Part shown: positions 35,987-64,000 of the stretch, piece by piece
Layout: each line of letters begins with the position of its first letter
Numbering within the stretch: position 1 is the first letter of the stretch
NCBI GenBank assembly: GCA_038400315.1
Contig: CP151667.1
Location: 4,475,174-4,539,173 of the forward strand
Direction: 5' to 3'
Length of the DNA stretch: 64,000 nucleotides
Origin: Isosphaeraceae bacterium EP7
Lineage (GTDB): Bacteria > Planctomycetota > Planctomycetia > Isosphaerales > Isosphaeraceae
The notes under the pieces: model-generated
Databases searched by the model: none
What the model saw: the letters and a program-made list of their open reading frames with translations, nothing else
Told to the model about the DNA's origin: nothing
Program-made: the position numbers and the translations under genes

Positions 35987-37753
35987 ATGTATAAAGGCGT
36001 CGCTGTCAGCCCTGGCGTTGTGGTGGGGGTCGCGTATCGCGTCGACTCCGTCTTCGGGCCGGGCGAGCCGCGCTCGCTGGCCGATGCCGGCCTGGTCCCC
36101 GAAGAGGTTGAGCGGTTCACGCTGGCCGTCGCCAAATCCGCCGAGGAACTCGAGCAGATTGTCGTCAAGGTCGCCGAGCAACTTGGCGCGGCCGAGGCCG
36201 ATATCTTCAAGAGCCATCTCCAGATCGTCAACGACCGGACCTTGATCTCGAAGGTCAATGACCTCATCGAGACGCGCCACCTGACGGCCCTCTCGGCGCT
36301 CCAGGAAGTTCTGCAAGGTTACGCCGCCACCTTCGCCCGGATCGAGCACGACTATTACCGGGAACGAATCGCCGACATCCGCGACGTCATCTCCCGGATC
36401 GGCTCGCACCTGACCGCGCAGTCGCCGTTCGACTCCCACGGCGACTCGGCCTTGAACGGCGACGAGCCGGTCATCCTGGTCGCCCACGAGCTGCTGCCCA
36501 GCCAGGCCATGAGCCTGGGCAACCTGCCGATCGCGGGGATCGTCACCGAGACCGGCGGCGGGACCAGCCATGCGGCCATCCTCGCCCGCAGCCGTGGGAT
36601 CCCGGCCGTCTCGGGCGTCATCGACATCACCCTCGTGGTCCAGTCCGGCGACCCCATCATCGTCGACGGCCGCGATGGCCTGGTGCTCATCCGGCCCGAC
36701 CCCGAGGTCACCTCCGCCTACCGCAAGCTCCAGCGCGAGTTCTTCGACCTGAAGGATCGCCTGATCCTCAACAGGGATCAGCCGGCCGTCTCCGCCGATG
36801 GCGCCCAGATCGAGCTGCTTGCCAACATCAACAACATCGCCGACGCCCAGGCCGCCTCGCAGGTCGGCGCCACCGGCGTCGGCCTCTTTCGCACCGAGTA
36901 CCTCTTCCTCACCCACCAGGACGTGCCCGACGAGGAAGAGCAGTACCAGTACTACCGCCAGATCATCGAAGACTCGCCCAACAAGACGATCACAATCCGG
37001 ACCCTCGACCTCGGTGGCGACAAGACCCTCCCCTACCTGGGCAGCCGCAACGAGGCCAACCCCTTCATGGGCTGGCGGTCGATCCGGCTTTCGTTCGAGC
37101 ACCCCAGGCTCTTCGAGCGCCAGATCAGGGCCATCCTGCGGGCCGCCAGGCACGGCAAGGTGAGCATCCTCTTCCCGATGATCACCACCCTGGAGGAGCT
37201 GAGGTACGTCAACCGGATGGTCGACGAGACGCGCCGGAACCTGCGGCGCGAGGGCGTCCCATTCGGCGAGGACGTGAAGACGGGCCTGATGGTCGAGGTC
37301 CCCGCGGCGGCCATCTGCATCGACGCCCTCCTGCGCGAGACCGATTTCATCTCGATCGGCTCCAACGACCTGATCCAGTATTTGGTGGCCGCCGACCGCG
37401 ACAACCCCAAGGTGGCCCACCTCTGCGAGCCCCTGAGCCCTGCAATCTTCAAGATCCTCCAGATGGTCATCGACGCCTGCCAGCGCATGGGCACGCCGGT
37501 GACGCTCTGCGGCGAGATGGCGGGCCAGCCCAAGAGCGTGCTGACCCTGTTCGGCCTCGGCCTGCGCCGGTTCAGCATGAGCCCCGCATTCGTGCCGACG
37601 ATCAAGGCGCTGCTCGCGTCGGTGACCACCGCCCAGGCCGAGCGGTTCGCCCACCAGGTGCTCCAGCTCAAGACGGCCGAGGAGATCCGCGGCTACCTCT
37701 CGGCTCGGCTGCACGAGGTCTCCAGTACGCTAGAAGTCCTCGATTCCAACTGA
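35987..37753 (+). CDS. ptsI: PTS enzyme I (phosphoenolpyruvate-protein phosphotransferase)
   Basis: 588 residues. The phosphohistidine site GGGTSHAAILARSRGIPAV (His195) lies in the swivel domain, and the PEP-binding barrel shows GVGLFRTEYLFL, TIRTLDLGGDK, and the catalytic Cys508 in LCGEMAGQP, equivalent to E. coli EI Cys502. It transfers phosphate from PEP to HPr. No HPr, enzyme II or HPr kinase gene is in the window, so the partner lies elsewhere; planctomycete EI may serve a regulatory rather than a sugar-transport PTS, which is inference. The gene is followed by a 445-base gap. Confidence 0.95.
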   Translation: MYKGVAVSPGVVVGVAYRVDSVFGPGEPRSLADAGLVPEEVERFTLAVAKSAEELEQIVVKVAEQLGAAEADIFKSHLQIVNDRTLISKVNDLIETRHLTALSALQEVLQGYAATFARIEHDYYRERIADIRDVISRIGSHLTAQSPFDSHGDSALNGDEPVILVAHELLPSQAMSLGNLPIAGIVTETGGGTSHAAILARSRGIPAVSGVIDITLVVQSGDPIIVDGRDGLVLIRPDPEVTSAYRKLQREFFDLKDRLILNRDQPAVSADGAQIELLANINNIADAQAASQVGATGVGLFRTEYLFLTHQDVPDEEEQYQYYRQIIEDSPNKTITIRTLDLGGDKTLPYLGSRNEANPFMGWRSIRLSFEHPRLFERQIRAILRAARHGKVSILFPMITTLEELRYVNRMVDETRRNLRREGVPFGEDVKTGLMVEVPAAAICIDALLRETDFISIGSNDLIQYLVAADRDNPKVAHLCEPLSPAIFKILQMVIDACQRMGTPVTLCGEMAGQPKSVLTLFGLGLRRFSMSPAFVPTIKALLASVTTAQAERFAHQVLQLKTAEEIRGYLSARLHEVSSTLEVLDSN

Positions 37754-38198: not shown

Positions 38199-39410
38199 AT
38201 GGCTCAACGTCCGAGCGTGAAAGAGATACTGGAACTCGCCAGGCGTGGCGGGGCCGCCACGCCCGAGGGCGCGGCCCCCGCCCCGGCGCCGACCCCCGAA
38301 GCCGAGCCCGAGCTTGAAGCCGCCCCCCCGCCGGCCGCCGCCGAGCCCGCCCCGACCGCCGCGAGCCTTGGCCGCCCCTTGACGCTCAAGGAGAAGCTGG
38401 CCGCCGCCCGCGCCGGCGGTGCCCCCGGCGCGACGCCGGCACCGGCCGCATCCGCGCCGAAGCCCGCGGCCGCGGCCCCGGTCGCCTCGGGCGAGAAGAC
38501 GGTCCCGGCCCCCGCCGAGTCGCTCGGCCGTCCGTTGACGCTCAAGGAGAAGCTGGCCGCCGCCCGCTCGGGCGGCACGGCCCCCGCGCCCGCCGCCGGC
38601 GCCTCGGCCTCCTCGGCCAAGCCCGCCGCCGCCAAGGCCGCGCCGGTCGCGAAGGTAGCCCGCGAGCTGCCGCCGCTCGACGAGATCACCGATCCGAAGG
38701 ACCTGGCCGAGGCCCTCCGCCGGGCCGGGGCGAAGAAGGACCAGGAGGTCGTCTCCGAGGCCGCCGTCGCCAAGGCCGCCGCCGCTGGCGCGACCCCGGG
38801 TGCCGCCGCCGCCGCGGGCCGGGCCGCCGCGACCAAGGCCGCCCCCAAGGTGATGCCCGTCCCGCCCAGGCCGAGCCGGCTTGCCTCGCTGGTCGAGCGG
38901 GTGACCCCCCGCCGCGACTTCAATACCTATACGGTCCCCTGGCTGGCCATCGGCTGGATCTCGTTCTCCGCGGGCATGGGCGCCCTGTCGCTCATGCTCG
39001 GCCGGTTCATGTTCCCCAACGTCCTGGCCGAGCCGCCCAGCACGATCAAGGTGGGCGTCCCCACCCAGTTCGAGCCGAGCGAAGTCAACGAACGCTGGAA
39101 GGCCGAGTGGGGCTTCTGGATCGTCCGGTCCAGCTACGAAGGGCAGGACCAGATCTACGCCCTCCAGTCGATCTGCACCCACCTGGGCTGCCCCCCCAAC
39201 TGGCTGGCCAGCGAGCAGAAGTTCAAGTGCCCCTGCCACGGGAGCGGGTTCTACATCTCGGGCGTCAACTTCGAGGGGCCCGCGCCCAGGCCGCTCGAGC
39301 GATTCAAGCTGAGCCTCGCCGACGACGGCCAGCTCGTCGTTGACAAGAGCCAGCGGTTCCAGCAGGAGCTCGGCCAGTGGGCCGACCCCGATAGCTTCAT
39401 CGCCGTCTGA
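38199..39410 (+). CDS. Membrane-anchored Rieske Fe-S protein with long repeat-bearing N-terminal tail
   Basis: 403 residues. The last 160 are a classical quinol-oxidoreductase Rieske domain with CTHLGC (326-331) and CPCHGSGFY (344-352), giving two Cys/His ligands each and the disulfide cysteines. One membrane segment precedes it (about 246-270). The first 230 residues are an Ala/Pro-rich cytoplasmic tail holding three copies of one motif: RPSVKEILELARRGG (4-18), RPLTLKEKLAAARAGG (59-74) and RPLTLKEKLAAARSGG (111-126). It delivers electrons from quinol to the c-type cytochrome of a bc1/b6f-like complex. The cytochrome b gene follows after 92 bases. Confidence 0.93.
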   Translation: MAQRPSVKEILELARRGGAATPEGAAPAPAPTPEAEPELEAAPPPAAAEPAPTAASLGRPLTLKEKLAAARAGGAPGATPAPAASAPKPAAAAPVASGEKTVPAPAESLGRPLTLKEKLAAARSGGTAPAPAAGASASSAKPAAAKAAPVAKVARELPPLDEITDPKDLAEALRRAGAKKDQEVVSEAAVAKAAAAGATPGAAAAAGRAAATKAAPKVMPVPPRPSRLASLVERVTPRRDFNTYTVPWLAIGWISFSAGMGALSLMLGRFMFPNVLAEPPSTIKVGVPTQFEPSEVNERWKAEWGFWIVRSSYEGQDQIYALQSICTHLGCPPNWLASEQKFKCPCHGSGFYISGVNFEGPAPRPLERFKLSLADDGQLVVDKSQRFQQELGQWADPDSFIAV

Positions 39411-39502: not shown

Positions 39503-40276
39503 ATGTCCATCGCCGACAAGATCTACGAGAGCCAGATCTGGAAGAGTGTCTTCCGGCACCCCATGCCCACCGACCGGCGCAACCGGGTCGTGGTCATGCT
39601 GTCGAACTTCTTCCTCCACCTGCACCCGGTCAGCGTCCGCAAGCAAGGCATCGCGCTGAGCTACACCTGGTGCATGGGGGGAACGACCTTCTTCCTGTTC
39701 ATGGTCGAGGTCGTTACCGGCGTCCTCCTGATGTTCTACTACCGGCCGACGCTGGAGCACGCCTACAACGACATCCTGGCGCTCCGCGACGTGACCACGC
39801 TGGGCATCCTCCGCGAGCTGCATCGCTGGGGGGCGCATGCGATGGTCATCGCGGTCTGGCTGCACATGTACCGCGTGTTCCTCACAGGCAGCTACAAGCC
39901 CCCGCGCGAATTCAACTGGGTGGTGGGCGTCCTGCTGCTCGTGTTTACACTGCTCTTATCGTTCACGGGGTACTTGCTCCCCTGGGACCAGCTCGCCATC
40001 TGGGCCATCACCGTCGGCTCGAACATGGCACGGGCGACGCCCGGCGTGGGGGTCGAAGGCCCGGGTGCGGCCCTGTTGAAGCTCAACGGGGTGAGCCTGA
40101 TTACCAACGGGTCAGACGCCAAGTTCGCGCTGCTCGCTGGCCGGACCGTGGGCGAGATGACCTTGAACCGGTTCTATGTGCTGCACTGCGTGGCGATCCC
40201 GCTAGCGGTGTCTCTGCTGATCATGATCCACTTCTGGCGCGTCCGTAAGGACGGCGGCATCAGCGGGCCGATGTAA
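39503..40276 (+). CDS. Cytochrome b6-like subunit of a quinol oxidoreductase
   Basis: 257 residues, the length of PetB-type split cytochrome b. Four heme-b histidines are in place: His107 and His121 (x13) in [21 protein letters not shown], and His228 and His243 (x14), as in b6. [19 protein letters not shown] aligns with FYCLGG of b6, so Cys57 matches the residue that binds the extra heme c-i covalently. The C-terminus [12 protein letters not shown] matches the b6 ending. Four to five membrane helices; it oxidises quinol in the inner membrane with the Rieske protein. The petD-like gene follows after 182 bases. Confidence 0.93.
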
Positions 40277-40458: not shown

Positions 40459-42048
40459 ATGCACCACCCCGACCTCACCCCCGCCGTGATGACCGGCCTC
40501 GGCTGGTATTACCTGCTGGCCGCGACGCTCAACGCGTCCGCGGCGGCGTATGTCGCGTACATGGAGATGGTCTCCGAGGGGGCCTCGAGGGCCGGCCTCA
40601 GGCCGAAGACTCGCAGCCTCCCCGGCTGGATGGTCACCTCGGTCCTGGTCCTCTACGGAGCGGCCACCCTGGCCCTGCTGCTCAGGGAGTTCATCCCCCA
40701 GGCCCTGACCATCACCTTCGGGCTCTGCGGCCTGGCCAACCTCATCGTCGCCATCGGCGCCGGTGCCGACGCCGCGCACCATGCCGAGGTCCACTCGGCC
40801 GGGCACGGGGTCGGCTCGGACTTCCACAAGCCGACCCTCGACGACCACATCCCGGCCGTCGGCCTGGGTAAGCCGATCAACCGGACGCTCTGGGCCCTGA
40901 TCTGGGCGATCACCGCCGTGGTCTTCCAGGCCATCGGCGCGGCCTACATCCTGGGCGGGCAGGTCGTCCTCCCGCAGTTCATGCGGGACGCGGCCGACAC
41001 GGTGTCGGGCCCGACCACCTTCTTCGTCGGCGCGACCTTGCTCTTCTACGGGCTCTATCGCTACCGCCGATTCCTGGCCAACGGCCTGGTCGCCTGGACC
41101 CTGACGAACCTCGCGCTGCTCGCCTTCGGCATGAGCATGACCGACTGGGACTTCCGCGACATCGTCACCAAGCCCGACAACGTGCCGATCATCGGCCTGA
41201 TCGTGCTGGTCGGCTTCTTCACCTGGATCGGCCTGCGTCGCGCCGTCATCAATGACTCGCGGATGGCCCAGGGGCTGCCCAACCTGGAGGAGCTCCAGCC
41301 CGAGAAGACCTTGACCTGGCCCGACCTGGTCTACACCGAGCTGATCGCCATGATCGGCCAGACGATCTTCCTGACCATCTGGGCCATCGTCTTGCAGGCC
41401 CCGCTGGAACAGCCCGCCTCGTCCACCGTCGCCCCCAACCCGTCGAAGGCCCCCTGGTACTTCCTCGGCCTCCAGGAGATGCTCGTCTACTTCGACCCCT
41501 GGATGGCGGGCGTCGTGCTTCCGAGCATGATCGTCGTTGGCCTGATGGCCATGCCCTACATCGACAACAACAAGCAGGGCAACGGCTACTACACGATCGA
41601 GCAGCGGAAGTTCGCCTGGCTGACGTTCCAGTACGGCTACCTCGTCTTGTGGGTCATCCTGATCCTCCTGGGGACGTTCTTGCGAGGGCCGAACTGGAAC
41701 TTCTTCGGGCCCTATGAGTACTGGGACCTGCACAAGGTCATCCCGCTGAACAACATCAACCTGTCGGACATCGTCTGGGTGCAGTTCCTCGGCACCAGTC
41801 GCCCGACGAACGTCCTCATCCGCGAGGCGCCGGGCATCGTCGCCGTGCTGGCCTACTTCACCGTTGTGCCGGCCATCCTCTACCGGCTCTTCTTCCGCAA
41901 GTACACCGAGCAGGCCGGGATCGTCCGCTTCCTGACCCTCGCCGTCCTCTTGCTGTTCATGGCAAGCCTGCCGATCAAGATGGTCTTGCGCTGGACGATC
42001 AACCTGAAGTACCTGGTGGCGATCCCCGAGTACTTCTTCAACATCTAA
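40459..42048 (+). CDS. petD-like subunit with N-terminal membrane extension
   Basis: 529 residues, far longer than PetD (about 160). Residues 285-415 correspond to the cytochrome b C-terminal half: TWPDLVYTELIAMIGQTIF, then PNPSKAPWYFLGLQEMLVYF. The APWY at 331-334 sits where PEWY usually lines the quinol-oxidation site. The region after it, to about 520, adds further helices (PNWNFFGPYEYWDLHKVIP and so on). The first 270 residues hold about six hydrophobic segments and a His-rich loop (GADAAHHAEVHSAGHGVG, about 102-119) unlike PetD. It should complete the quinone-binding core with the b6-like protein. Confidence 0.9.
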   Translation: MHHPDLTPAVMTGLGWYYLLAATLNASAAAYVAYMEMVSEGASRAGLRPKTRSLPGWMVTSVLVLYGAATLALLLREFIPQALTITFGLCGLANLIVAIGAGADAAHHAEVHSAGHGVGSDFHKPTLDDHIPAVGLGKPINRTLWALIWAITAVVFQAIGAAYILGGQVVLPQFMRDAADTVSGPTTFFVGATLLFYGLYRYRRFLANGLVAWTLTNLALLAFGMSMTDWDFRDIVTKPDNVPIIGLIVLVGFFTWIGLRRAVINDSRMAQGLPNLEELQPEKTLTWPDLVYTELIAMIGQTIFLTIWAIVLQAPLEQPASSTVAPNPSKAPWYFLGLQEMLVYFDPWMAGVVLPSMIVVGLMAMPYIDNNKQGNGYYTIEQRKFAWLTFQYGYLVLWVILILLGTFLRGPNWNFFGPYEYWDLHKVIPLNNINLSDIVWVQFLGTSRPTNVLIREAPGIVAVLAYFTVVPAILYRLFFRKYTEQAGIVRFLTLAVLLLFMASLPIKMVLRWTINLKYLVAIPEYFFNI

Positions 42049-42126: not shown

Positions 42127-45100
42127 ATGCCCGCCACCGAGGAAACGTTCCGGAAGCAGACGACGCTCCACGTCGTGTTCGCGATCACCTCGGTCGCCAT
42201 GACGCTGTCGATCGTCTGGATGATCATGGCCGACCACCTCCGGCCCTGGAAACAAACCCAACGCGCCTTCCACGTCGTCGAAGACGAGAAGCTCCGCGTC
42301 GCCGAGCAGCAGAAGGTCCAGGCGCTCAAGACGACCAAGCAGGCCGAGCTCGACAAGATCGAGGCCGAGATCAAGGCCGCCGAGCAGACCCAGGCCGACA
42401 ACAGCCGGAATATCAAGCTCCAGGACCGCGAGCTACGCCGGCTGGAGGGGACCTTCCAGGACCTCGACACCGCAGCCCGGTTCCAGAAGGCCGAGCTTGA
42501 CAGCCTGCGCAGCCTCTATGACGGCATGATCGACCGCGGCGAGGAGCGCGAGGCCCGCGCCTACATCGCCTCGACGATCGTCCCCGCCGAGGCCAAGCTC
42601 GCCGAGGTCAAAGGCAAGCTCGAAGGGGCCACCAAGGTCCTCGCCGCCGGCAAGGCGAAGCTGTCCGACCTGAAGGGCAACATCACCGCCCTGGAGAAGA
42701 AGCGGGACGACATCCGCCGAGAGGTCGACCGCGCCGGCCGGGTGCTGGCGCAGAAAGAGGCCCAGTTCTTCGGGCCGATGGCGTTCGTCCGCGGCCTGCC
42801 CGGACTCGACCTGGCCGCCTCGCCCACCAGGATCCAGCAGATCAGCCTGCCCGACCTGACGATCAACTACAACTTCAAGGATGTGCCCCGGTACGACCGC
42901 TGCACCACCTGCCACCAGGGCATCGACCGACTTGGCTATGACGTCGCCCCCGACGGCAAGACGCCGATGAAGGAGATCAACCCCGCCTTCGCCGCGCACC
43001 CGCACCTGACCGACGGCGCGACGACCATCGACCCCACCGGCAAGGTGGTTCCCGCGGGCCTCTACCTGGACAGCAACGGGCCGCACGGCATCAACAAGAT
43101 GGGCTGCACCATCTGCCACGGCGGGCAGGGGTCGGGCACCGACTTCACCTACTCGTCGCACGAGCCGAACGACCCCGAGCAGAAGCACAAGTGGGAGCAG
43201 GACCACGCCTGGCGCGAGATGCACCACTGGGACGAGCCGATGCTCCCCAGCCGGTTCATCGAGTCCAGCTGCATCAAGTGCCACCACCAGGTCACCGACG
43301 TCCCCGACGCCAAGAAGCTCCAGGCCGGCTTCGAGCGGATCACCAAGTACGGCTGCACCGGCTGCCATACCATCGGCGGGGAGGGCTCCTTCGGCCCCGA
43401 CCTGACCGACGCCCGGCAGGTCGGCCCGAACCTAAAGCACCTCGCCTCGAAGGTCTCCAAGGACTGGACCGCCCGCTGGATCAAGAACCCGCACGCCTTC
43501 CGCCCCGACACGCGGATGCCCCGGTTCTATGACGTGAGCAACAACGCCTCGGCCAAGGACCAGCCCAAGGTCGCCGCCGAGGTGCACGCCATGACCCACT
43601 ACCTCTTCTCGGTGAGCAAGCCCCCCGAGGGGTTCGTCGACGTCCCCGCCAAGGGAGACGCCGCGAAGGGCAAGGAGACGTTCCTCCAGAAGGGATGCCT
43701 CGCCTGCCACGCCCACAAGGAGACCGGCCCGGCCACCCTGCCCGAAGGGGCCAAGGAGTATGCCTCGGCCGACTTCGGACCGAACCTGTCGAACATCTCG
43801 GCCAAGTTCGGCTCCAAGGACGACGGCTTCCGTTGGCTGGCCAACTGGGTCAAGGCGCCCGAGGCCTACCACGCCAAGAGCCTGATGCCCAACCTGCAAC
43901 TTTCATGGCAGGACTCGGCCGACATCGCCGCCTGGATCCTCTCAATCCCCGGCGAGTGGCCCGGACAGGTCGCCCTCGAGGCGCTCGACTCGCCCGAAGT
44001 CTCGAAGGGGCTCGACGAGCTGGTCAAGCTGTACAAGAGCAAGACCGAGGCGATCTCGGAGCTTGACGGCAAGGTCGCGGCCATGACCCGCGATGACAAG
44101 CTGATGTTCCTGGGCAAGACGACCATCGGTCGGCTCGGCTGCTTCGGCTGCCACAACATCGCGGGCTTCGAGGCCTACAAGCCGATCGGCACCCCGCTCA
44201 ACGGCTGGGGGGCCAAGAGCCCGACGAAGCTCGACTACGGCCACATCGCCGAGTACTTCATCGACCAGGTTCCCGACGACCACGGCAACCGCGACGGCAC
44301 CGACCACTACTACCAGGAGAAGATCGAGGAGCACACGCGCTCCGGCTTCCTCTACCAGAAGCTCCACCGCCCGCGCAGCTACGACTTCAAGAAGACCAAT
44401 GAGGACGTGAAGGCCTGGGACGAGCGGCTCCGCATGCCGCAGTTCAGCTGGGCCAACGACCCCAAGGCCATCGAAGAGGTCATGACCTTCGTCCTCGGCC
44501 TGACCGGGGAGAAGATCGCCTCGAAGTACCTGCCGGCGACCACCGCCACCCCGGCCTCGAACGCCGTGGCCGAGGGCCGCAAGCTCCTGAGCCGGTATAA
44601 CTGCACCGGCTGCCACGTCCTTGAGATGCCCAAGTACACGATCGCCGGGGCGACCAAGTTTGAAGAGGCCTTCCCCACGTTCGAGACCAATGTCCGCGTC
44701 GCCTACAACGCGAGGCAGACGGACTACCTGGCCGAGCTCTATCCCAAGCTGACGTACGACCCCAAGACACAGCCCACGATCGGGCCGGTCGACGGCAAGC
44801 CGATCACGTTCGAGGCGATGCCCACCGGCACGTTCGAGAACGAGTTGACCGTCACCCTCTGGCGCCCCACGACGATCCGCGGGTTCACGTTCAACGTGGG
44901 CGACACGCTCACCCTGGACTCGACGAAGGTGGCCAAGACCCCGGCCGTCGGCGGCGACTTCGCCTGGCTCTCCGCGGCCTACCAGGCCGAGAAGACCGGC
45001 ACCGACTACGCCACGTTCTGGAACAGGCTTCCCCCGCCGCTCTTGCGGGAAGGGCTCAAGGTGCAGACCCCCTGGCTGACCTCGTTCCTGAAGGATCCGT

Positions 45101-45696
45101 ACCAAATCCGGCCGGCGGCCAACCTGCGGATGCCCAAATTCCACTTCGGCAGGGTTGACGAGCTCGGCCCGGCCGAGACCGCGGGCCTTGCCAACTACTT
45201 CGCCGCCAATGACGGGGCCGAGTTCCCCTACCAGGCCATCCCCGAGCGCGAGCAGGGCTACCTGACCGAGGCCGAGGCCAAGCACGCCAACTACCTGGGC
45301 GGCGGCTGGCAATTGATGACCAAGGGGGCTTGCGTGGGGTGCCACTCGATCGGTGCCTTCAAGCCGAACGGCGGGCCGCAGGTCGTCAATGGCCCCGACC
45401 TCCGCCAGGTCAACAATCGGTTCCGGCCGGGGTATCTGGCCGAATGGCTGGCCAACCCCAAGCGTCTCGTTCCGTACACGGCCATGCCTCAGAACGTCCC
45501 GCCGAACGGCCCGCCCGCGGTGGGCGTGCCCAAGTCGATGGAGGGGCAGACCTGGGTGCAGGTCAAGGCGATGCGTGACACGCTCTTGAACTACGTCAAC
45601 GCGGTCGAGTCGCAGCTTGCAGGTGCGGCCCCCGCTCCCGCGGCCGCACCCGCCGAGGCCCCGGCCGCCCCCAAGGCCCCGGGTGCCTCGGAGTAA
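42127..45696 (+). CDS. Eight-heme c-type cytochrome with membrane anchor and coiled coil
   Basis: 1189 residues. One membrane segment near the start (about 13-34) is followed by a charged coiled coil of about 170 residues (roughly 45-215). Then eight CxxCH heme sites begin at Cys259, 327, 382, 410, 524, 672, 826 and 1069. The spacing suggests several mono- and diheme cytochrome modules of the class I kind. The Ala/Pro-rich C-terminus ends the protein. Gene order (Rieske, b6-like, petD-like, cytochrome) suggests it replaces cytochrome c1/f as electron acceptor of the complex and passes electrons on in the periplasm. A terminator hairpin follows. Confidence 0.92.
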   Translation: MPATEETFRKQTTLHVVFAITSVAMTLSIVWMIMADHLRPWKQTQRAFHVVEDEKLRVAEQQKVQALKTTKQAELDKIEAEIKAAEQTQADNSRNIKLQDRELRRLEGTFQDLDTAARFQKAELDSLRSLYDGMIDRGEEREARAYIASTIVPAEAKLAEVKGKLEGATKVLAAGKAKLSDLKGNITALEKKRDDIRREVDRAGRVLAQKEAQFFGPMAFVRGLPGLDLAASPTRIQQISLPDLTINYNFKDVPRYDRCTTCHQGIDRLGYDVAPDGKTPMKEINPAFAAHPHLTDGATTIDPTGKVVPAGLYLDSNGPHGINKMGCTICHGGQGSGTDFTYSSHEPNDPEQKHKWEQDHAWREMHHWDEPMLPSRFIESSCIKCHHQVTDVPDAKKLQAGFERITKYGCTGCHTIGGEGSFGPDLTDARQVGPNLKHLASKVSKDWTARWIKNPHAFRPDTRMPRFYDVSNNASAKDQPKVAAEVHAMTHYLFSVSKPPEGFVDVPAKGDAAKGKETFLQKGCLACHAHKETGPATLPEGAKEYASADFGPNLSNISAKFGSKDDGFRWLANWVKAPEAYHAKSLMPNLQLSWQDSADIAAWILSIPGEWPGQVALEALDSPEVSKGLDELVKLYKSKTEAISELDGKVAAMTRDDKLMFLGKTTIGRLGCFGCHNIAGFEAYKPIGTPLNGWGAKSPTKLDYGHIAEYFIDQVPDDHGNRDGTDHYYQEKIEEHTRSGFLYQKLHRPRSYDFKKTNEDVKAWDERLRMPQFSWANDPKAIEEVMTFVLGLTGEKIASKYLPATTATPASNAVAEGRKLLSRYNCTGCHVLEMPKYTIAGATKFEEAFPTFETNVRVAYNARQTDYLAELYPKLTYDPKTQPTIGPVDGKPITFEAMPTGTFENELTVTLWRPTTIRGFTFNVGDTLTLDSTKVAKTPAVGGDFAWLSAAYQAEKTGTDYATFWNRLPPPLLREGLKVQTPWLTSFLKDPYQIRPAANLRMPKFHFGRVDELGPAETAGLANYFAANDGAEFPYQAIPEREQGYLTEAEAKHANYLGGGWQLMTKGACVGCHSIGAFKPNGGPQVVNGPDLRQVNNRFRPGYLAEWLANPKRLVPYTAMPQNVPPNGPPAVGVPKSMEGQTWVQVKAMRDTLLNYVNAVESQLAGAAPAPAAAPAEAPAAPKAPGASE

Positions 45697-48165: not shown

Positions 48166-48493
48166 AGCTTGCCTGTATCCGGGGCGTCTACGCCCGTCGG
48201 GAAGGCAGTTTGCGGCGGATTCGAGTCGGCTCCCATCGATTTTCTCCTCATGATTTGCTCGAAATCTTGCCGCGGTCCCCAATTTGCCTTGCCATTCGAT
48301 TTGCCCTGGCCTGCACAATGGCAGAAGTGGGACGATGCGAGCCCCGAAGGATGAGGATGAAGGCGAGCCCGCGTGGAGGCGACTGACGCTCTTCCGGGTG
48401 GGCGACCTCGATCTTGACGCTCGCCCTCGACTCCTTCGTCCAGCCACCGCCGATCAGACCTCTGTCGAGCCTCTCACTCGCGAGGAGGGCCGA
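48166..48493. other. Gap upstream of the propeller-protein gene
   Basis: A frame open from 48284 joins the large downstream gene but lacks a leader; it is best read as untranslated. The real start is set by GAGGAGGGC at 48482. Promoter region presumed; no hairpin seen. Confidence 0.35.
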
Positions 48494-51400
48494 ATGACGA
48501 TCGAGACCCGTACGGTAGGACGATCGATCCGCGCTGGCGGGCGGGCCTTCTCGGCGTGTCTGGCCGTCGTCTCGGCGATGATCGGAATGCATGCCGCGGC
48601 CCAGGAACCACACCGCGCGGGGCCCCCGTTCCGGGCCGACACCAGTCACTCGGCGACGACCCTGCTGCGTAGCGCCGCCTCGCACGCCAAGGACGCCCAC
48701 TGGGCCGAGGCGATCGACATCTACTTGAAGGTGATCCAGCAGTTCGGCGACAAGATGGCCGAGCTGCCCAAGGATGACCCGCTCTCCGACCCGACCGGCA
48801 CCGTCTCCCTGTCCGTCGATCTGCGGCACTTCTGCCAGCGGCGGATCGCCGAGCTGCCCCCCGAGGCCCGCGCGTTGTACCGTGCCAGGGTCGACGACCA
48901 GGCCGAGCGGTGGTACCGACAGGGTGCCGAGCAACGCGATTGGGCCCTGCTGCGTCGGGTGGTCGACCAGGGATTCTCAAGCTCATGGGGGGACGATGCG
49001 CTCGACCTCCTGGGCGACCTTGCCTACCAGGATGGCCGGTTCGCGGAGTCGCTTTCGTACTATCGCCAGCTTGTGCCCGACCGCGCCGAAGGCCCTCGCG
49101 GGCTGGTCCACCCCGACCCGAGCATCGACCTGGCGAAGGTCGCGGCGAAGAAGATTCTCTGCCGGGCGGCGATCGGCGAGGACGTCCCCGGACCGGCCGA
49201 CATCGAGGCGATGGCAAAGGCCTATCCCGATGCCAAGGGCCCACTGGCCGGCATCGACGGGCTGTTCGCAACGACCCTGACCGAGGCCCTTGCGCACGGG
49301 AACCTGGCCCCGCCGGCGCAGGCCGACGGCCGCTGGCCCACCTTCGCGGGGGCTCCCACCCGGACCAAGATCGCCGCGGGGCCGATCGACGTCGGCTCGT
49401 TCCAGTGGAAGATCGAGCTCGAGCCCCCGACCAGGCCGGGCGGGTCGCGCGGCGGGTTCAACCCGATGGTCAACCCGTCGATTTCCTCGGTCTCGCCGGA
49501 GCGGCTGCTGGCCTATCACCCGATCATCGTGGGCGATCAGGTCATCGTCCGCGATGACAAGCAGGTGGTGGCCTACAACCTGGGCGAGCGGCCCGCGGGC
49601 GAAGGGGGGAGCCGGGACGGCATTGTCCCCGTGGCCTGGAAGCATGAGAACCAGGCGGGTCAGTTCGTCCCGTCGGCCGCCCGCAGCTCGATCGGCGTGC
49701 CCAGGTTCACGCTCACGGCCGTCGGCGACCGGATCTTCGCGCGGCTCGGGCCCCCGGCCATGACCTCGATGAGCCGCATGCCGTCCACGCCCCCGTCCTC
49801 GATCGTGGCGCTGGACCGGGCCAGCGACGGCAAGCTGCTCTGGCGCCGACATGCGGCCGACCTCGACATGGCCAGGCGCGGCGGAGAAGGGGGCCGCAGC
49901 CCGACCTTCGAAGGCACGCCCGTCGCAGATACCCGGGGGGTCTACGTCGGCGTGACGGTCAACGATGTCGGCGGCCAGACCGCGGTGCACGTCGCCTGCC
50001 TCGACGCCGACACCGGGCAGACCCGATGGATTCGCTACGTGGGCGACTCGTCGGCCGACAACCCGTTCAACGGCATAGGGGGCATGGGCGGCATGGGGAT
50101 GAGCGGCCCCGGCGCCGAGCTGGGCCATCGCCTGCTGAGCCTCGACGGCTCGACGGTCTTTTACCAGACGAACTTGGGCGCGGTCACGGCGCTCGACGCC
50201 GAGACGGGCTCGATCCGCTGGGTCGCCGCCTACCACCGCCAGGAACGCCAGGCGGGCTCGGCCCCGGTGCGCGACCTGAACCCGGCGATCGTCCACGACG
50301 GCCTCGTGCTGGTCGCGCCCGAAGACTCCCCTTCAATCCTGGCCCTCGACGCGGCCACGGGCCGGCTCGTCTGGAAGACCGACCCGCTGCCGGAGGAGGT
50401 CCGCCTGACCCACCTGCTCGGTGTGGCCAAGGGACGCCTGATCGCCACCGGCGACGTGGTGATGTGGTTCGACATCAAGACGGGTAAGCGCCTGCACACG
50501 TTCCCGGACACCGCGCGGACCTATCAGGGGTTCGGCCGCGGGATCCTCGCCGGCGACCGCGTCTACTGGCCCACCCGCGGCGAGATCCAGGTGCTCGACC
50601 AGTCCAACGGCCTGCGCACCGAGCCGCCGATCAAGCTGATGGAAGACTTCCAGATCAACGGCGGCAACCTCGTCGCCGGCGACGGCTACCTGATCGTCAC
50701 CCAGGCCGATTCGATGGTCGTCTTCTGCCAGAACCGCCGTCTGATGCAGCGCTATCGCGAGGAGATCGTCAAGGCGCCCGAGAAGGCGTCCAACTACTAC
50801 CGCCTGGGCCGCGCCGCCGAGGCCGTCGGCGACGACGACGAGGCCCTGGCCAACCTGGCGCTGGCCGCCGATAAGGCCGGGCCGTCCGAGCAGATCGACG
50901 GCCAGCTTCTGGCGGGGATCGCCGGAGACCACAGGCATCGGCTGTTGATGAAGCTGGGCCGCAAGGCGCGAGACGCCAAAGACTGGGCCGTCGCCGCCGA
51001 TCGGTTCAGGGGGGCCGCCGCCGTCTCGCGGGTCGACCGCGATGCCCTGGCCGCAAGGCTGGAGCTGGCCGACGTCCAGGTCCGCAGCGACGAGCCCGCC
51101 CTCGCCGTCGGGACGCTTCAGGATGTCCTCAAGGACGAGCGGCAGCGGTTGGTGAGCGTCGCCCTGGCCGACGGACGCAGGACCGTCAGGGCTGACCTTC
51201 TCGTCGCCGATCGGCTGGCCGAGTTGCTCGCCGCCAAGGGGCAGGGGCTCTACGCCGAGTTCGACGCCAGGGCCGCCGACCTCTACGGGCGGGCGAAAGC
51301 CACGCTTCAGGCCAGGCCGCTCGAGGAGATCGCCTCGGCCTACCCGGTGGCCACGGTCATCCCGGACGTCTGGCTGACCCTGGCCGAGCTTCACGACGGC

Positions 51401-52933
51401 GCCGGCCGGCACGGCGACGCGGCACGCGCCTACAAGCACCTGCTGGACGCGACCCACGAGAATGAACTGAAAGGCCGGGCCCTCTGGGGGCTGGCCCGGG
51501 CCTACGAGGCTCAGAAGCTCTGGATCCCGGCTCGCGACGCCCTGGCCAGGCTCTCGCGGATGCCGGACGCCGCCTTCGAGGGCAAGGACCTGGCGGCGCT
51601 CGCCTCCTTGAGGCTCCAGTCCGATCCCTTCGACCGGCTGGTCTCCGGCGGTGGCGACTCCGAGCCGACCGTCCCCCTGAAGCGGACCTGGAGCCGGCCC
51701 GAGCAGGTCGGGCAATCCAGGTTGCTCGCCGCGGAGGGTGTCCCTCCCTCGTCGGACGCCGCGCGGATCTTCCTCGTCGAAGGGTCGAGGCTCGCCCCCA
51801 TCGAGATGCTCAGCGAACAGGCCTCCTGGTCGGTCGAGCTGAAGTCTGAGCCGCTCTGGGCGGGTTACCTGGCCGACCGCTTGGTCGTGGCCACGTCGCG
51901 TGGGCTCGTGGCGCTGGCCGTCGACACCGGCGTCGAGGCCTGGCGGCAGGAAGTTGCCGCCGAACCTGGGGGCAAAGGCGGCGCGAATCCGTTCGCCAGG
52001 CGCGACCGCGGCGACGGCCGGGGCGTGCCCGATCCCGGGCTGCTTCACGGCTTCCGCGTCGTGGGCGACCGGATCTACTGTCTGCGGGGCGAGTCGAGCC
52101 TGATGGCCTTCGACGGCGAGAATGGGCTGGTCGCCTGGACCTATTCCCCGGAAGGGGCGCGGATCAACCCGCACATGGCCGTCACCGCGCGGCACATCAT
52201 CCTGCAAGCCCGCTCGCCCAACGCGATCGACGTGCTGGACACCGAGAGCGGCCGACGGCTTTCGAGCTCGGCTCGTCCCGAGGACGAGGACTGGCTCCGC
52301 GACCCGCTCCCGCTGGACGATGATCGGCTGGCCCTGGTCCTGAACAAGCGCACGATCGCCCTGTTCGAGGTCGCCCGCGGCGAGATCGGCTGGAACTTCC
52401 GCGAGAGCGAAGTCCTGCCCGGCCGAGGCAGCCCCCGGATCCTGGGCGACGCCGAGCACCTGCTCGTGCTGCACGACGGCCTCCGCCTGATCCGGCTCGA
52501 CCCCAAGACCGGCAAGAAGCTCTGGGAATGCCCGCTCGGGGTGGACAACCTCAGCGAGCGGCCCGAGGCCATGGCGCTCGACGGCCTGAGGCTCTATGCG
52601 GCAACGGATAACGACCTGGTGGCGGTCTCGCTCGCGGACGGCAAGCGGGCTTGGCGGCGGACCCTCTCGGGGCCGAGGGCTCGCTGGTCGGTGGAGCTGG
52701 GCCGCAACGGCCTGGTCGCCTGGCCCACCCCGTCCGACGGCGAGCCGGGCGACCTGCCGGTGGTCTTCCGGTCGAGGTCCGACGGCGGCCTGCTCCAGCG
52801 GTTTGTCTTCCCGGTGACGAGCGGCGGCCTCGACGTCAGGCTGGCCACTCGCGGGGCGGTTATCGCCTCGTCGGGGGCCCTCTGGGCTCTCGGGGATCGC
52901 CGGACGATAGACGCGGCGGCGGCGCCGCGTTAG
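48494..52933 (+). CDS. Giant secreted protein with two PQQ-type beta-propellers and TPR-like helices
   Basis: 1479 residues from the ATG at 48494 with GAGGAGGGC seven bases upstream and a signal-like N-terminus (hydrophobic stretch about 17-36). Residues 50-120 are TPR-like. From about 290 to 760 there is a PQQ/BamB-type propeller with repeats such as [33 protein letters not shown] and TGRLVWKTD. Residues 770-1060 are helical TPR-like repeats. A second propeller lies at about 1075-1470 ([46 protein letters not shown]). PQQ binding as cofactor is not shown; the fold may serve protein contacts. The MoxR gene follows 91 bases later. Confidence 0.88.
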
Positions 52934-59677: not shown

Positions 59678-59741
59678 GATGGAATAGAACGGACGGCCCT
59701 TGACGCGGATTGGCTCGAAGGCTGCCGGGAGGCATTCGGTG

Positions 59742-62700
59742 ATGCGTGGTCCCCTCGAAACTCGGATCGCGTCGCTGCGGGGGCAGGTCCGACGCCAGCT
59801 GGCATTGCACGGTGCGGGCCTGCTGACGGCGGGCATCGTGCTGGCCATCATCGGTGCCTGCCTGCTCGACTTCCTCTTCCACCTGGCACCCGAGGTCCGG
59901 CTCGTCCTGCTTCTGGCCACGATTGGCCTGGGCGCCTGGCTGCTGGCCCGGCACGTCGTCCGGCCCCTGATCGTCCGGTTCCGCGACCTCGACATCGCGA
60001 TGCGCATCGAGAAACGATGGCCGGGCCTCAACGATCGTCTCGCGAGCGCCGTCCAGTTCCGCGACGGAACCGAATCCGATGACCTGGGCTCGCTCGCCCT
60101 GCGTAACGCGACGGTACGACAGGCCATCGCCGAGACCGAGTCGATCGACTTCCGCGAGGTCGTCGACAAGGCCCCCACGAGGCGTGCTCTGGCGGCCGCC
60201 GCCCTGACGATCGCGGCAGGCCTGGGGATCTATGCCGCGTCGCCGGCCCTGTCGCGGATTGCCTTGAACCGGTTTGCCAGGCCCTACGGCGGCACCGCCT
60301 GGCCCAGGCAGACCCATCTCAGCCTGGCCGAGGCTCGCCGCAAGGTGGCCCGCGGCGAGTCCTTCGATCTCGCCGTCAAGGTCGCGCCCGGCGAGACCGT
60401 CCCGACTTCCGCGAAGGTCACCTATCGCTTCCCCGACACCGGCGAGTCGGTCGTCGAGTCGCTCCGCGCCGTCGAGGGGGGTCTCTTCCGCGGCCGGATC
60501 GAGTCGGTCTCCCGCCCGTTCACCTTCTCGGTGGCCGCCGGCGACGACTCGACCAGCGTCCGCGACGTCGCCATCCAGGTCGTGCCGCCCCCTTCGCTCG
60601 TCGAGATCGCCGTCACGGTCGTCTCGCCCGACTACACGGGCGTCGGCCCCAAGACGCTCGCCGCCGGCAACTCTCAGGTCCGTGCGGTGGCCGGCAGCAA
60701 GGTCGAGATCCGGGCGTCCGCGAACAAGTCACTCGCGTCGGCCGAACTCCGGATCGGCGAGGCCACGGTCCCGGTCACGCTCGACCCGAAGTCGCCCAAG
60801 AAGGTCGTGACCCGCTTCGACGTCAAGGCCTCGGCTCCGTTCTACTTCGACCTGAAGGACACCGAGGGCTTCAAGAACCAGGAAGCCCAGCGGTACGACG
60901 TCAGGATGGACAAGGATGAGGCCCCCAGGGTCGCCATCGAGGAGCCGAACAACGACCGCGACGTCCCGCCGGGCGCCACGGTCCCGCTCAGGTTCACCGT
61001 CGACGACGACTACGGGACCCACTCAGCCCGCCTCGCCTACAAGATCGCCAACGGCGGTTCCGAGCCCGGACCCGACGCCTTCATCCCTCTCTGGAACGCC
61101 CCCGAGACGCCCGAAGGTCGGACGACCAAGCACACGGAGATCGGCCACGCCTGGTCGCTCGCGTCCCTGAATCTGACCCCGGGCGCCGTGATCACGTTCC
61201 ACGCCGACGCTCGCGATTACGACACGATTAACGGCCCTAACCTTGGCAAGAGCCGTGAGTTACGCATTCGAATCATCAGCCCCGAGGAACTCGCCAGGAA
61301 CCTGGAGGCCCAGCGTCGCGAGATCCGCGAGGAGGCCGAGCGCATTCTCAAGATGCAGGAGCAGGCCCTCCGGCCGGTCGAAGAATCCAGGCGCACCCTG
61401 AACCAGGCCGGCAAGCTCGACCCCAAGGGGCGCGATGACCTCAAGGTCGCCGAGATGATCCAGCGACAGCTCGCCGGCCGGGTGACCAACCAGGCCGACG
61501 GACTCGACCAGAAGATCGGCCGGTTCCTCGACGACCTCAAGAACTTCAACGTCGAGAACCCCGACGCCGCCGCCCAGATGCAGGAGATGAAGGCAGGGGT
61601 CGACCGGATCCGCGACGACCACCTGACCGCCGCCGAGCAGGCCCTCAACCGCGCCTCCAAAGCCCTCGACGAGCAGCAGGACCAGCAGGCCGAACAAAAC
61701 CAGGCAGGCGCCCAGGCTCGAAACGAACCCAACGCCCCGTCCCAAACGAAGCCAACGGCCCCCCAATCCAAGGGAGCTGCCGCCGATCAGGCCAAGGCTG
61801 CCGTCGGACAATCCAAGCAAGCCCAGGCCGGCGAACAGTCCAAGGGCCAGCCTGCCGGGAAGACCGAAGCTGGCGACCAGGCGAAGGGTCAACCGGCCGG
61901 GAAGGCCGAGGCGGGCGAACAGGCCAAGGCCGATCAATCCAAGGGGCAGGCTGGCGGCGATCAGGCTAAGGGCCAGCCGGCCGGCAAGGCCGATGAGTCG
62001 AAGCCGCAAGAGCAGGGGGGGGCCGACGAGGGCAAGGCCCCGGATGCCAAGGAGTCGCTGGCCCAGGCCGAGACCAATCAGAAGGCGATCGCCGGCGAGC
62101 TGAAGAAGATGCTCGACGGCCTCAGCGAGTTCGAGACCTATCGAGGCGTGGTCAAGGACGCCCAGGAACTTCTGAAGGCCCAGGAGCAGGTGATGAAGCA
62201 GGCGGCCGAGGCCGCCGCCAAGCCCGAACTCACCGGCAAGACCCCCGAGAAACTCGACGACGCCCAGAAGGCCGAGCTAGGCAACCTGGCCGGTCGCCAG
62301 AACGAGGTCGCCCGCAACCTCCAGGGGCTCATGGAGAAGATGGCCGAGATGGCCAAGAAGCTCGACGCCGAAGACCCGCTCGCCGCCTCCGCCATGAGGG
62401 GCGCCGCCGAGGAGTCTCGCGCCAAGGGGACCGCGGGCAAGATGGGTGAGGCCGCCGAGCAGCTCGAGAAGAACCAGATGGGGTCCGCCCGCGCCGGCCA
62501 GGAGAAGGTGCGTGACGAGCTGAAGGAACTGGTCGACTCCATCCAGGACCGCAAGGGCCGCGAGCTCTCCAGGCTCGTCAAGGAGCTGAAGAACGCCGAG
62601 GAACGACTCGAGCAGATCAAGAAGCGCCAGACCGAGAACCTCAAGAAGACCCAGCAGGCCCGCGCCGAGAAGGACCCGAAGAAGAAGTCGGACTCCCTGA

Positions 62701-63599
62701 AGAAGCTCGCCAAGGAGCAAGCGGAGATCGAGAAAGAGCTGAAGAAGGAGTTACAGAAGCTCGCCAAGCTCAACGCGGGCCGGGCCGCCCAGAAGGGGGA
62801 GGAGGCCGCCGCCAAGATGAAGAAGTCGGAGCAGGGGCTCGACCAGGACCAGGGTGAAGAGGCCGAAGAGGACCAGGAAGACGCCCTGGCCGACCTTGAA
62901 GAGGCGCAAGAGGAAGTGGCCGAGGCCCGCAAAGAGGCCGAGGAGCAACTCGCCATGGAAGAGCTGGCCAAGATGACCGACGAGCTCAAGTCTCTGGCCG
63001 AGCGGCAGGAGAAGGTGGCCGTCGAGACGGTCGACTACGACAAGAAGCGGCTCGCCGCCGGCGGCAAGCTGACCCGGGGCGAGAGCATCTCGGTGCGTGA
63101 CCTGGGCAAGACCGAGCTCGGCCTGAAGTCGGAGACCGCCGAGCTGGTCAAGAAGCTCGAAGGGGCCCCCGTCTTCGCCCTCACGCTGAAACGAGCCACC
63201 GAGGGGATGGACTCCGCAGGCCAGCGGCTCCAGGGGCTCAAGACCGACGCCGAAACCCAGCGCCCCGCGCGGGCTGCCGCCGACCGGTTCAAGCAACTCG
63301 TCGAATCCCTCAAGCCCGACAAGCCCAAGCAGGGTGGCGGCGGGGGCGGCGGTGGTGGCGGTGGCGGCGGAGGGGGCAACAACGACGGAATTCCCGCCTC
63401 GGCCCAGCTCAAGATCCTCAAGTCGCTCCAGCAAGAGATCAACGACCAGACCGACTTCTTCGAGACCCTCAAAGAGCGCAAGAAAGAGCTGACCGACGCC
63501 CAGACGGCCGAGGTCGAGCGGCTGAAGATCGAGCAAGGCGCGCTGGCCGACCTGGTCCGCGACATGACCAAGCCCAAACGTGATGACGGGGAGGACTGA
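59742..63599 (+). CDS. DUF4175-like giant coiled-coil membrane protein
   Basis: 1285 residues from the ATG at 59742 with GGGAGG nine bases upstream; a TTG 14 codons earlier is less supported. Two or three membrane helices (about 25-75 and 145-165) are followed by Ig-like beta domains (about 200-510) typical of the DUF4175 family. The rest is a long acidic/basic coiled coil (about 535-1190), broken by a low-complexity Gln/Ala/Gly/Lys stretch with repeats of AKGQPAGKxEAG at about 690-770 and by a run of 15 glycines near residue 1200. In other planctomycetes DUF4175 accompanies MoxR/BatA genes. A structural, envelope-spanning role is likely. Confidence 0.85.
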   Translation: MRGPLETRIASLRGQVRRQLALHGAGLLTAGIVLAIIGACLLDFLFHLAPEVRLVLLLATIGLGAWLLARHVVRPLIVRFRDLDIAMRIEKRWPGLNDRLASAVQFRDGTESDDLGSLALRNATVRQAIAETESIDFREVVDKAPTRRALAAAALTIAAGLGIYAASPALSRIALNRFARPYGGTAWPRQTHLSLAEARRKVARGESFDLAVKVAPGETVPTSAKVTYRFPDTGESVVESLRAVEGGLFRGRIESVSRPFTFSVAAGDDSTSVRDVAIQVVPPPSLVEIAVTVVSPDYTGVGPKTLAAGNSQVRAVAGSKVEIRASANKSLASAELRIGEATVPVTLDPKSPKKVVTRFDVKASAPFYFDLKDTEGFKNQEAQRYDVRMDKDEAPRVAIEEPNNDRDVPPGATVPLRFTVDDDYGTHSARLAYKIANGGSEPGPDAFIPLWNAPETPEGRTTKHTEIGHAWSLASLNLTPGAVITFHADARDYDTINGPNLGKSRELRIRIISPEELARNLEAQRREIREEAERILKMQEQALRPVEESRRTLNQAGKLDPKGRDDLKVAEMIQRQLAGRVTNQADGLDQKIGRFLDDLKNFNVENPDAAAQMQEMKAGVDRIRDDHLTAAEQALNRASKALDEQQDQQAEQNQAGAQARNEPNAPSQTKPTAPQSKGAAADQAKAAVGQSKQAQAGEQSKGQPAGKTEAGDQAKGQPAGKAEAGEQAKADQSKGQAGGDQAKGQPAGKADESKPQEQGGADEGKAPDAKESLAQAETNQKAIAGELKKMLDGLSEFETYRGVVKDAQELLKAQEQVMKQAAEAAAKPELTGKTPEKLDDAQKAELGNLAGRQNEVARNLQGLMEKMAEMAKKLDAEDPLAASAMRGAAEESRAKGTAGKMGEAAEQLEKNQMGSARAGQEKVRDELKELVDSIQDRKGRELSRLVKELKNAEERLEQIKKRQTENLKKTQQARAEKDPKKKSDSLKKLAKEQAEIEKELKKELQKLAKLNAGRAAQKGEEAAAKMKKSEQGLDQDQGEEAEEDQEDALADLEEAQEEVAEARKEAEEQLAMEELAKMTDELKSLAERQEKVAVETVDYDKKRLAAGGKLTRGESISVRDLGKTELGLKSETAELVKKLEGAPVFALTLKRATEGMDSAGQRLQGLKTDAETQRPARAAADRFKQLVESLKPDKPKQGGGGGGGGGGGGGGGNNDGIPASAQLKILKSLQQEINDQTDFFETLKERKKELTDAQTAEVERLKIEQGALADLVRDMTKPKRDDGED

Positions 63600-63601
63600 T
63601 C

Positions 63602-64000
63602 ATGAACGCGGCCTACATCCGACACCGAGGCTCAGCACCGTCCAGGCTCACCGTCCTGCTGGGCGGCCTCCTCCTGACCGCCTGCCTCGCACCGTTCGCC
63701 CCGGCGCAGGACGCCCCCAAGAAGGACGACGCCCTGGACAAGCTGCTCCAGGAAATCGACGAGTCCAAGGCGGACAAGCCAGCCGCCGAATCGAAGCCCG
63801 AAGCCAAGGCTCCCGAGCCCGCCCAGGATAAGCCGAAGACCAAGGCCGACGAGACGCCCAAGCCCGACCCCGAGAAGGCGAAGGTCGCCCCCAAGGATGA
63901 GGCGCTCGACAGCCTGCTGGAGAAGCTCGGCCAGGCCGAGGACGCGCCGGACACGAAGGAGAAGCCGAAGTCCAAGTCCCCCGACGAGCCCATGCCTCCC
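63602..64000 (+). CDS. Secreted Lys/Pro/Asp-rich protein, cut by window end
   Basis: The ATG at 63602 lies two bases after the DUF4175-like stop, with GGAGGAC upstream. The first 133 codons are visible. A signal peptide (about 12-36, LTVLLGGLLLTACLAPFAPAQ) is followed by a highly charged region with two copies of an LDxLLxxL unit (ALDKLLQEIDES and ALDSLLEKLGQAE) among Lys/Pro/Glu stretches. No domain yet recognised; the rest lies beyond the window. It belongs to the same transcript as the MoxR/BatA cluster. Confidence 0.75.
   Translation, partial: MNAAYIRHRGSAPSRLTVLLGGLLLTACLAPFAPAQDAPKKDDALDKLLQEIDESKADKPAAESKPEAKAPEPAQDKPKTKADETPKPDPEKAKVAPKDEALDSLLEKLGQAEDAPDTKEKPKSKSPDEPMPP

Follow-up and report, generated by a model that had tools for sequence, protein, structure and literature searches.

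The question raised by this locus is why a Rieske iron-sulfur protein, one of the textbook electron carriers, should bear a long N-terminal tail with several copies of one short motif. The window, by which we mean the whole analysed stretch of 64,000 nucleotides, comes from the 7.2 Mb genome (5 contigs) of Isosphaeraceae bacterium EP7. It encodes this protein (P0001, 403 aa) at 38199..39410, from an ATG at 38199; this gene and the features of its operon and tail described below lie on the plus strand. P0001 is a Rieske protein, as represented by a Pfam PF00355 match at residues 306-369 (E 2.8e-9, 37.2 bits against a cut-off of 20.3), by both cluster ligand boxes, CTHLGC (326-331) and CPCHGS (344-349), seen in the sequence and in an alignment (39174..39245), and by the adjoining cytochrome b. 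Its scores are below the NCBIfam equivalog cut-offs of bc1/b6f Rieske subunits (60.2 against 97.4 bits for TIGR01416; 61.2 against 250 for NF045928), and the best solved relative, 9rk3_A (E 4.6e-42), covers residues 284-402. The nearest named relatives, among the matches listed, were those of Singulisphaera sp. GP187, S. acidiphila and Aquisphaera insulae.

Downstream of this gene lie the N-terminal part of cytochrome b (39503..40276, 257 aa; PF00033, E 2.7e-40), its C-terminal part (40459..42048, 529 aa; PF00032, E 3e-4) and a multi-domain cytochrome c (42127..45696, 1189 aa; PF00034, E 3.4e-23, with PF02433 and PF13442). Judged from the sequence, the gene at 38199, the two-part cytochrome b and the multi-domain cytochrome c constitute a bc-type operon. 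The upstream neighbour at 35987..37753 on the plus strand, a PEP-utilising phosphotransferase (PtsI-like; PF02896, PF05524 and PF00391), served as a synteny marker. A second Rieske gene of this genome (L010, G000:C1:817756-818103) has no tail and stands beside a distant cytochrome b paralogue. Elsewhere in the window, we noted a 1549-aa frame with PQQ/BamB-like and TPR matches (48284-52933), and a strong AT skew (0.46) at 62001-64000, mostly inside a 1299-aa frame (59700-63599).

The N-terminal tail of P0001 comprises 235 Ala/Pro-rich residues, in agreement with the initial annotation, which had put it at about 230, and contains three motif copies and a fourth conserved helix. The copies read R4-P-SVKEILELARRGG, R59-P-LTLKEKLAAARAGG and R111-P-LTLKEKLAAARSGG, and share the core [ST][VL]KE[IK]LxxARxGG, which begins at residues 6, 62 and 114. 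Copy 1 is SVKEILELAR (residues 6-15, 38214..38243), while copies 2 (residues 62-71, 38382..38411) and 3 (residues 114-123, 38538..38567) are both TLKEKLAAAR. The three copies had been placed at residues 4, 59 and 111 from the start, but the formula given for them lacks one residue in the case of copies 2 and 3, and the divergent fourth element, RELPPLDEITDPKDLAEALRR / RELPPLDEITDPKDLAEALR, at about residues 155-174 (38661..38720), recognised in the alignment, had not been listed.

Chance does not readily produce such a tail. When it was shuffled 20,000 times, one match appeared in a single shuffle and two matches in none, as compared with the three observed. In the window, an exact match to the back-translated core is found at two places, each inside the Rieske gene (0.01 expected). 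A 17-position motif profile searched against the bacterium's own genome gave three matches in the Rieske gene (E 9e-5 to 4e-4), followed by a next match at E 0.2; the matches outside this gene (E 0.2-5.5) were inspected and dismissed as chance. Recurrence of the motif, proposed earlier as a check, was found in the Rieske proteins of relatives, as described below, but in the own genome the profile found only the Rieske gene with confidence.

An AlphaFold model of P0001 (16 sequences; mean pLDDT 61, pTM 0.31) placed helices at residues 7-15, 63-72 and 115-124, coinciding with the three motifs, and the flanking stretches had pLDDT values below 50. Confidence on these short helices was moderate (block means 63-72), and that of the Rieske part of model m873b706ec59f was mixed. 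Helices were also modelled, among others, at residues 166-195, overlapping the fourth element, and at 241-271 (38919..39011), the latter being the single membrane helix that had been expected to follow the tail. The S/T-x-x-E at the start of the motif is presumably a typical helix capping box. No match to the tail was found in solved structures at E values up to 10.

We then compared 16 Isosphaeraceae proteins in an alignment, using column identity as the measure. Identity was 0.90 in the motifs, 0.84 in the fourth helix (columns 156-174) and 0.81 in the membrane and Rieske part, as compared with 0.55 in the Ala/Pro-rich linkers, which differ in length and sequence. Alanine columns alone gave 0.98 in the motifs and 0.55 in the linkers, so that composition does not explain the conservation of the motifs. 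Both later copies are present in all 16 proteins, and residues R155, P158, P159, L160, D165, P166, D168, L169, E171 and R174 of the fourth element are invariant. When the same later copy was compared between species, 1739 synonymous and 285 non-synonymous differences were counted in 3360 codon comparisons; the corresponding figures for the cluster block were 2537 and 765 in 6960. Between the two later copies of one protein, 2-10 synonymous and 0-2 non-synonymous differences were found in 14 codons. The picture of short conserved helices separated by disordered linkers is therefore borne out by the model and by the alignment, and a tail varying freely without conserved motifs, named beforehand as the refuting outcome, was not what these 16 proteins displayed.

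The motif is widespread among related tails. In the best 80 of 365 loci by similarity to the whole query, a selection that favours tails, 76 were not truncated, and 67 of these had a strict match (139 matches in total, about 0 expected by shuffling). By a loose pattern, up to 10 copies were counted in the chain of L113. The other nine comprise L019, L022, L024 and L027, which fit a looser pattern, L056 and L058, which have near-copies by eye, and L072, L074 and L082, whose tails of 63-70 residues have no copies. At E 0.02, the profile matched in 54 of 118 genomes of the class, 23 of them in the family of the window; the 64 class genomes without a match at this threshold indicate that the array is dispensable. 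In a phylum sample, at least 5 of 149 genomes matched at E 0.003, all within the class, but this threshold is too strict even for the genome of the window (best E 0.0085), and restriction to the class is not claimed.

In some relatives, the array is retained after loss of the redox domain. In one Isosphaeraceae genus (g9: G008, G025, G034 and G114), the gene is kept and the cluster ligand boxes are lost, a form we term pseudo-Rieske. The Pfam Rieske match was absent in both pseudo-Rieske loci scanned (L231 and L233), and searches of the four genomes found no cytochrome b of the window type, only a distant paralogue. In G025 and G114, the gene order is that of the window minus both parts of cytochrome b and the cytochrome c. 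Each of the four genomes keeps copy 1, anchored at the start codon, together with two or three exact EKLAAAR copies. A pattern-based count of motif codons is biased here, as the pattern fixes 7 of 10 residues, so that part of the low non-synonymous figure comes from the pattern itself. Copy 1, compared by its anchored position, showed 1-4 non-synonymous differences in 12 codons, with R4, P5, V7, E9, I10 and R15 invariant, as compared with 51-79 in 123-132 codons of the C-terminal domain. Copy 1 is thus less clean than the pattern-based count, yet its non-synonymous change is below that of the C-terminal domain.

Two further forms were found. In G080, the tail, which carries four copies plus two divergent ones, ends in the membrane helix and a stop codon, and the Rieske domain is gone; ligA follows within about 60 bases, at the place where the congener G064 has the genes for Rieske protein, cytochrome b N, b C and cytochrome c before ligA. 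Upstream, the 18 kb of G080 showed no ptsI. In G108 and G124, the array forms a stand-alone protein of about 300 residues, ending in GGWFARLFE and with no membrane helix by eye, and no window-type cytochrome b was found in G108. At L186 (1426-2364) and in L185, the stand-alone array protein has about seven motif-like copies and this ending, and L186 gave no Pfam match.

A second bearer of the motif was found in relatives, namely a small protein with an SH3/KOW-like domain of about 70 residues, followed by up to seven copies of the STADILAxAR type. Its first member matched no Pfam or NCBIfam family at E values up to 1, other members gave weak, scattered Pfam matches, and the N-domain was modelled at pLDDT 80-93 by blocks. 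Among the fold families in the structure tables compared, this domain resembled NdhS (6khi_S; Z 7.9, 60 residues, 2.0 A), the variable chain of ferredoxin-thioredoxin reductase (FTR; 7c3f_E; Z 7.7, 66 residues) and PetP (2n5u; Z 7.4, 66 residues), each at about 20% sequence identity, and the KOW domains of Spt5 and NusG scored about equally. The motif is on both bearers in eight genomes (G063, G067, G079, G086, G093, G117, G123 and, with weak copies, G073). Eight other genomes, of family f5 (G040, G049, G057, G060, G076, G096, G102 and G107), have the array on the SH3-like protein; a tailed Rieske protein was not found there, the best match being a frame of 174-196 aa (E 6e-14 to 6e-13; two frames read). 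Searches of 37 and then of 45 Isosphaeraceae genomes, that of the window among them, did not find the SH3-like protein, apart from one weak partial match in G270; it therefore cannot be the partner of the array in the window's genome. In six genomes of family f3, the SH3-like protein is short and has no array. In family f2 (L161 in G055, L162 in G050 and L164 in G037), it carries a different repeated short motif, KKLSPLEMARQQGAA-like, with a C-terminal copy ending in QQG(P/A)FKG. Within a genome, the motif variants of the two bearers looked by eye as if they might vary together, but the comparison is confounded by kinship, and co-variation is not claimed.

Matches on other proteins were few. 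In 15 genomes chosen as motif bearers, 63 of 73 matches at E 0.4 fell in a Rieske tail or an SH3-like protein, and two of the remaining ten were on an unassigned C-terminal fragment (G113, L225). We took as chance, with labels given by eye, the matches in an antisense frame (L173), in three ORFs (L176, L178 and L180), in a TetR-like protein (L181), in a sigma-factor-like protein (L179), in IF-2 (L272) and in CoaB-like proteins (L273/L274). Single copies in a cytochrome c assembly protein (L174 in G020; PF01578, E 0.0017), in a nitrite reductase-Rieske-flavin fusion (L175 in G037; E 6e-4) and in PepSY-TM proteins (L177 in G049, E 0.0018; L226 in G107, E 0.0084) were kept as leads, and by their sequence these four genomes possibly hold further bearers. 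The G020 match may possibly be chance, about 0.2 such matches being expected in 118 genomes.

The tail has features of an array of short linear docking motifs, with a conserved core in variable, disordered surroundings and the motif present on unrelated proteins, and it probably has a job of its own. We favour, as a reasonably probable reading, that it serves as a multivalent docking array for a cytoplasmic partner, useful even where there is no electron transfer. Rieske proteins have an N-in topology, from which we infer that the tail would face the cytoplasm. Four other explanations were weighed and considered less likely than the docking array. The best of them, though unlikely, is that the motifs bind each other in a helix bundle or condensate, clustering Rieske and SH3-like proteins in the plane of the membrane. 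The several similar copies on each chain, up to the ten of L113, and the presence of the motif on two proteins of one genome are consistent with such homotypic oligomerisation; the copies, however, are only about 10 residues long, and the hydrophobic moment, 0.50 for copy 1 of the window, is 0.12-0.20 in four other motif forms. Distinctly less probable is that the tail acts as a maturation signal, with a chaperone staying bound to the motifs up to insertion of the Fe-S cluster, after which Tat export could proceed. Many Rieske proteins of this kind are Tat substrates, and the tail directly precedes the twin arginine R238-R239 (38910..38915), which we take to be Tat-like, and which is invariant in all 16 proteins and adjoins the membrane helix. 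Against this stand the retention of the motifs in the four genomes that lack the cluster ligands and in the one that lacks the domain, and the occurrence of the array on an SH3-like protein in which no export signal was seen by eye. Marginally weaker still is the idea that the motifs are amphipathic helices lying on the inner leaflet of the membrane. The net charge of 0 to +2 and the moment of copy 1 would suit it, but the low moments of the other four forms, the conserved acidic residue and Arg, which look specific, and up to seven copies on a soluble protein argue otherwise. Low-complexity expansion without function is highly improbable: the variable linkers and copies 2 and 3 of the window, which differ at only 2 codons, would fit it, but it is contradicted by the conservation of motifs relative to linkers, by the mostly synonymous change and by the retention of motifs after domain loss.

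The docking array thus remains our preferred reading, and the suggestion of docking sites made in the initial annotation fits conserved helices in a disordered tail that recur in relatives and on an unrelated protein, the docking itself being the inferred part. Each copy would probably act as a helix-capped short motif, with an S/T-x-x-E/D start, hydrophobic residues and a closing A-R, that folds onto a groove of the partner, with the disordered Ala/Pro linkers presumably spacing the copies. The Rieske tail and the SH3/KOW-like protein of related families probably have this putative partner in common; the array may bring these two together or make them compete for it. The further proposal that the partner reads the quinone pool found no support. 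The array is kept where cytochrome b was not found and where the Rieske ligands or domain are lost, and it occurs on a soluble protein in genomes where a tailed Rieske protein was not found. The array is retained in genomes that have lost this type of quinol-oxidising complex, which leaves quinone-pool reading unsupported. The array would need neither the Rieske cluster nor the cytochrome bc complex, and the putative partner would lie outside that complex.

Decay of the carrier domain in a lineage where the tail has preserved its motifs suggests that the Rieske subunit has a second function, separable from the first. Planctomycetia are bacteria of unusual cell biology, for which few intracellular scaffolds are known. 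As a more speculative extension, which we regard as doubtful at present, [ST]xx[DE][IK]LxxAR might be a docking code of this class that recruits an unseen machine in the cytoplasm or at the membrane surface. The Rieske protein would then be one of several membrane anchors, whose scaffold role outlived the bc complex in some lineages as pseudo-Rieske and tail-only anchors, with the SH3-like bearer as a soluble component of the system, perhaps a PetP/NdhS-like regulator. Searches of listings of openly licensed papers found no description of such a tail or motif, or of a degenerate Rieske protein of this kind, and the motif offers a concrete bait for a machine which may be peculiar to Planctomycetia.

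In comparison with known systems, PetP, NdhS, PsaE and the FTR variable chain are SH3-type subunits located at the cytoplasmic face of electron-transport complexes. PetP is reported to bind cytochrome b6f on that side (PMC9342900). Unlike PetP, the companion protein shows no sign here of binding a bc complex. P0001 itself resembles the bc1/b6f Rieske subunits (PF00355) in its ligand boxes, its one membrane helix and its cytochrome b neighbour, and differs from them by the 235-residue motif-bearing tail. Helical short linear motifs in disordered tails, such as the LYR motifs of Fe-S clients and the encapsulation peptides of microcompartments, differ from the Rieske-tail motif in sequence, and are presumably alike in the short helix, the disordered flanks, the repeats and the movement between proteins.
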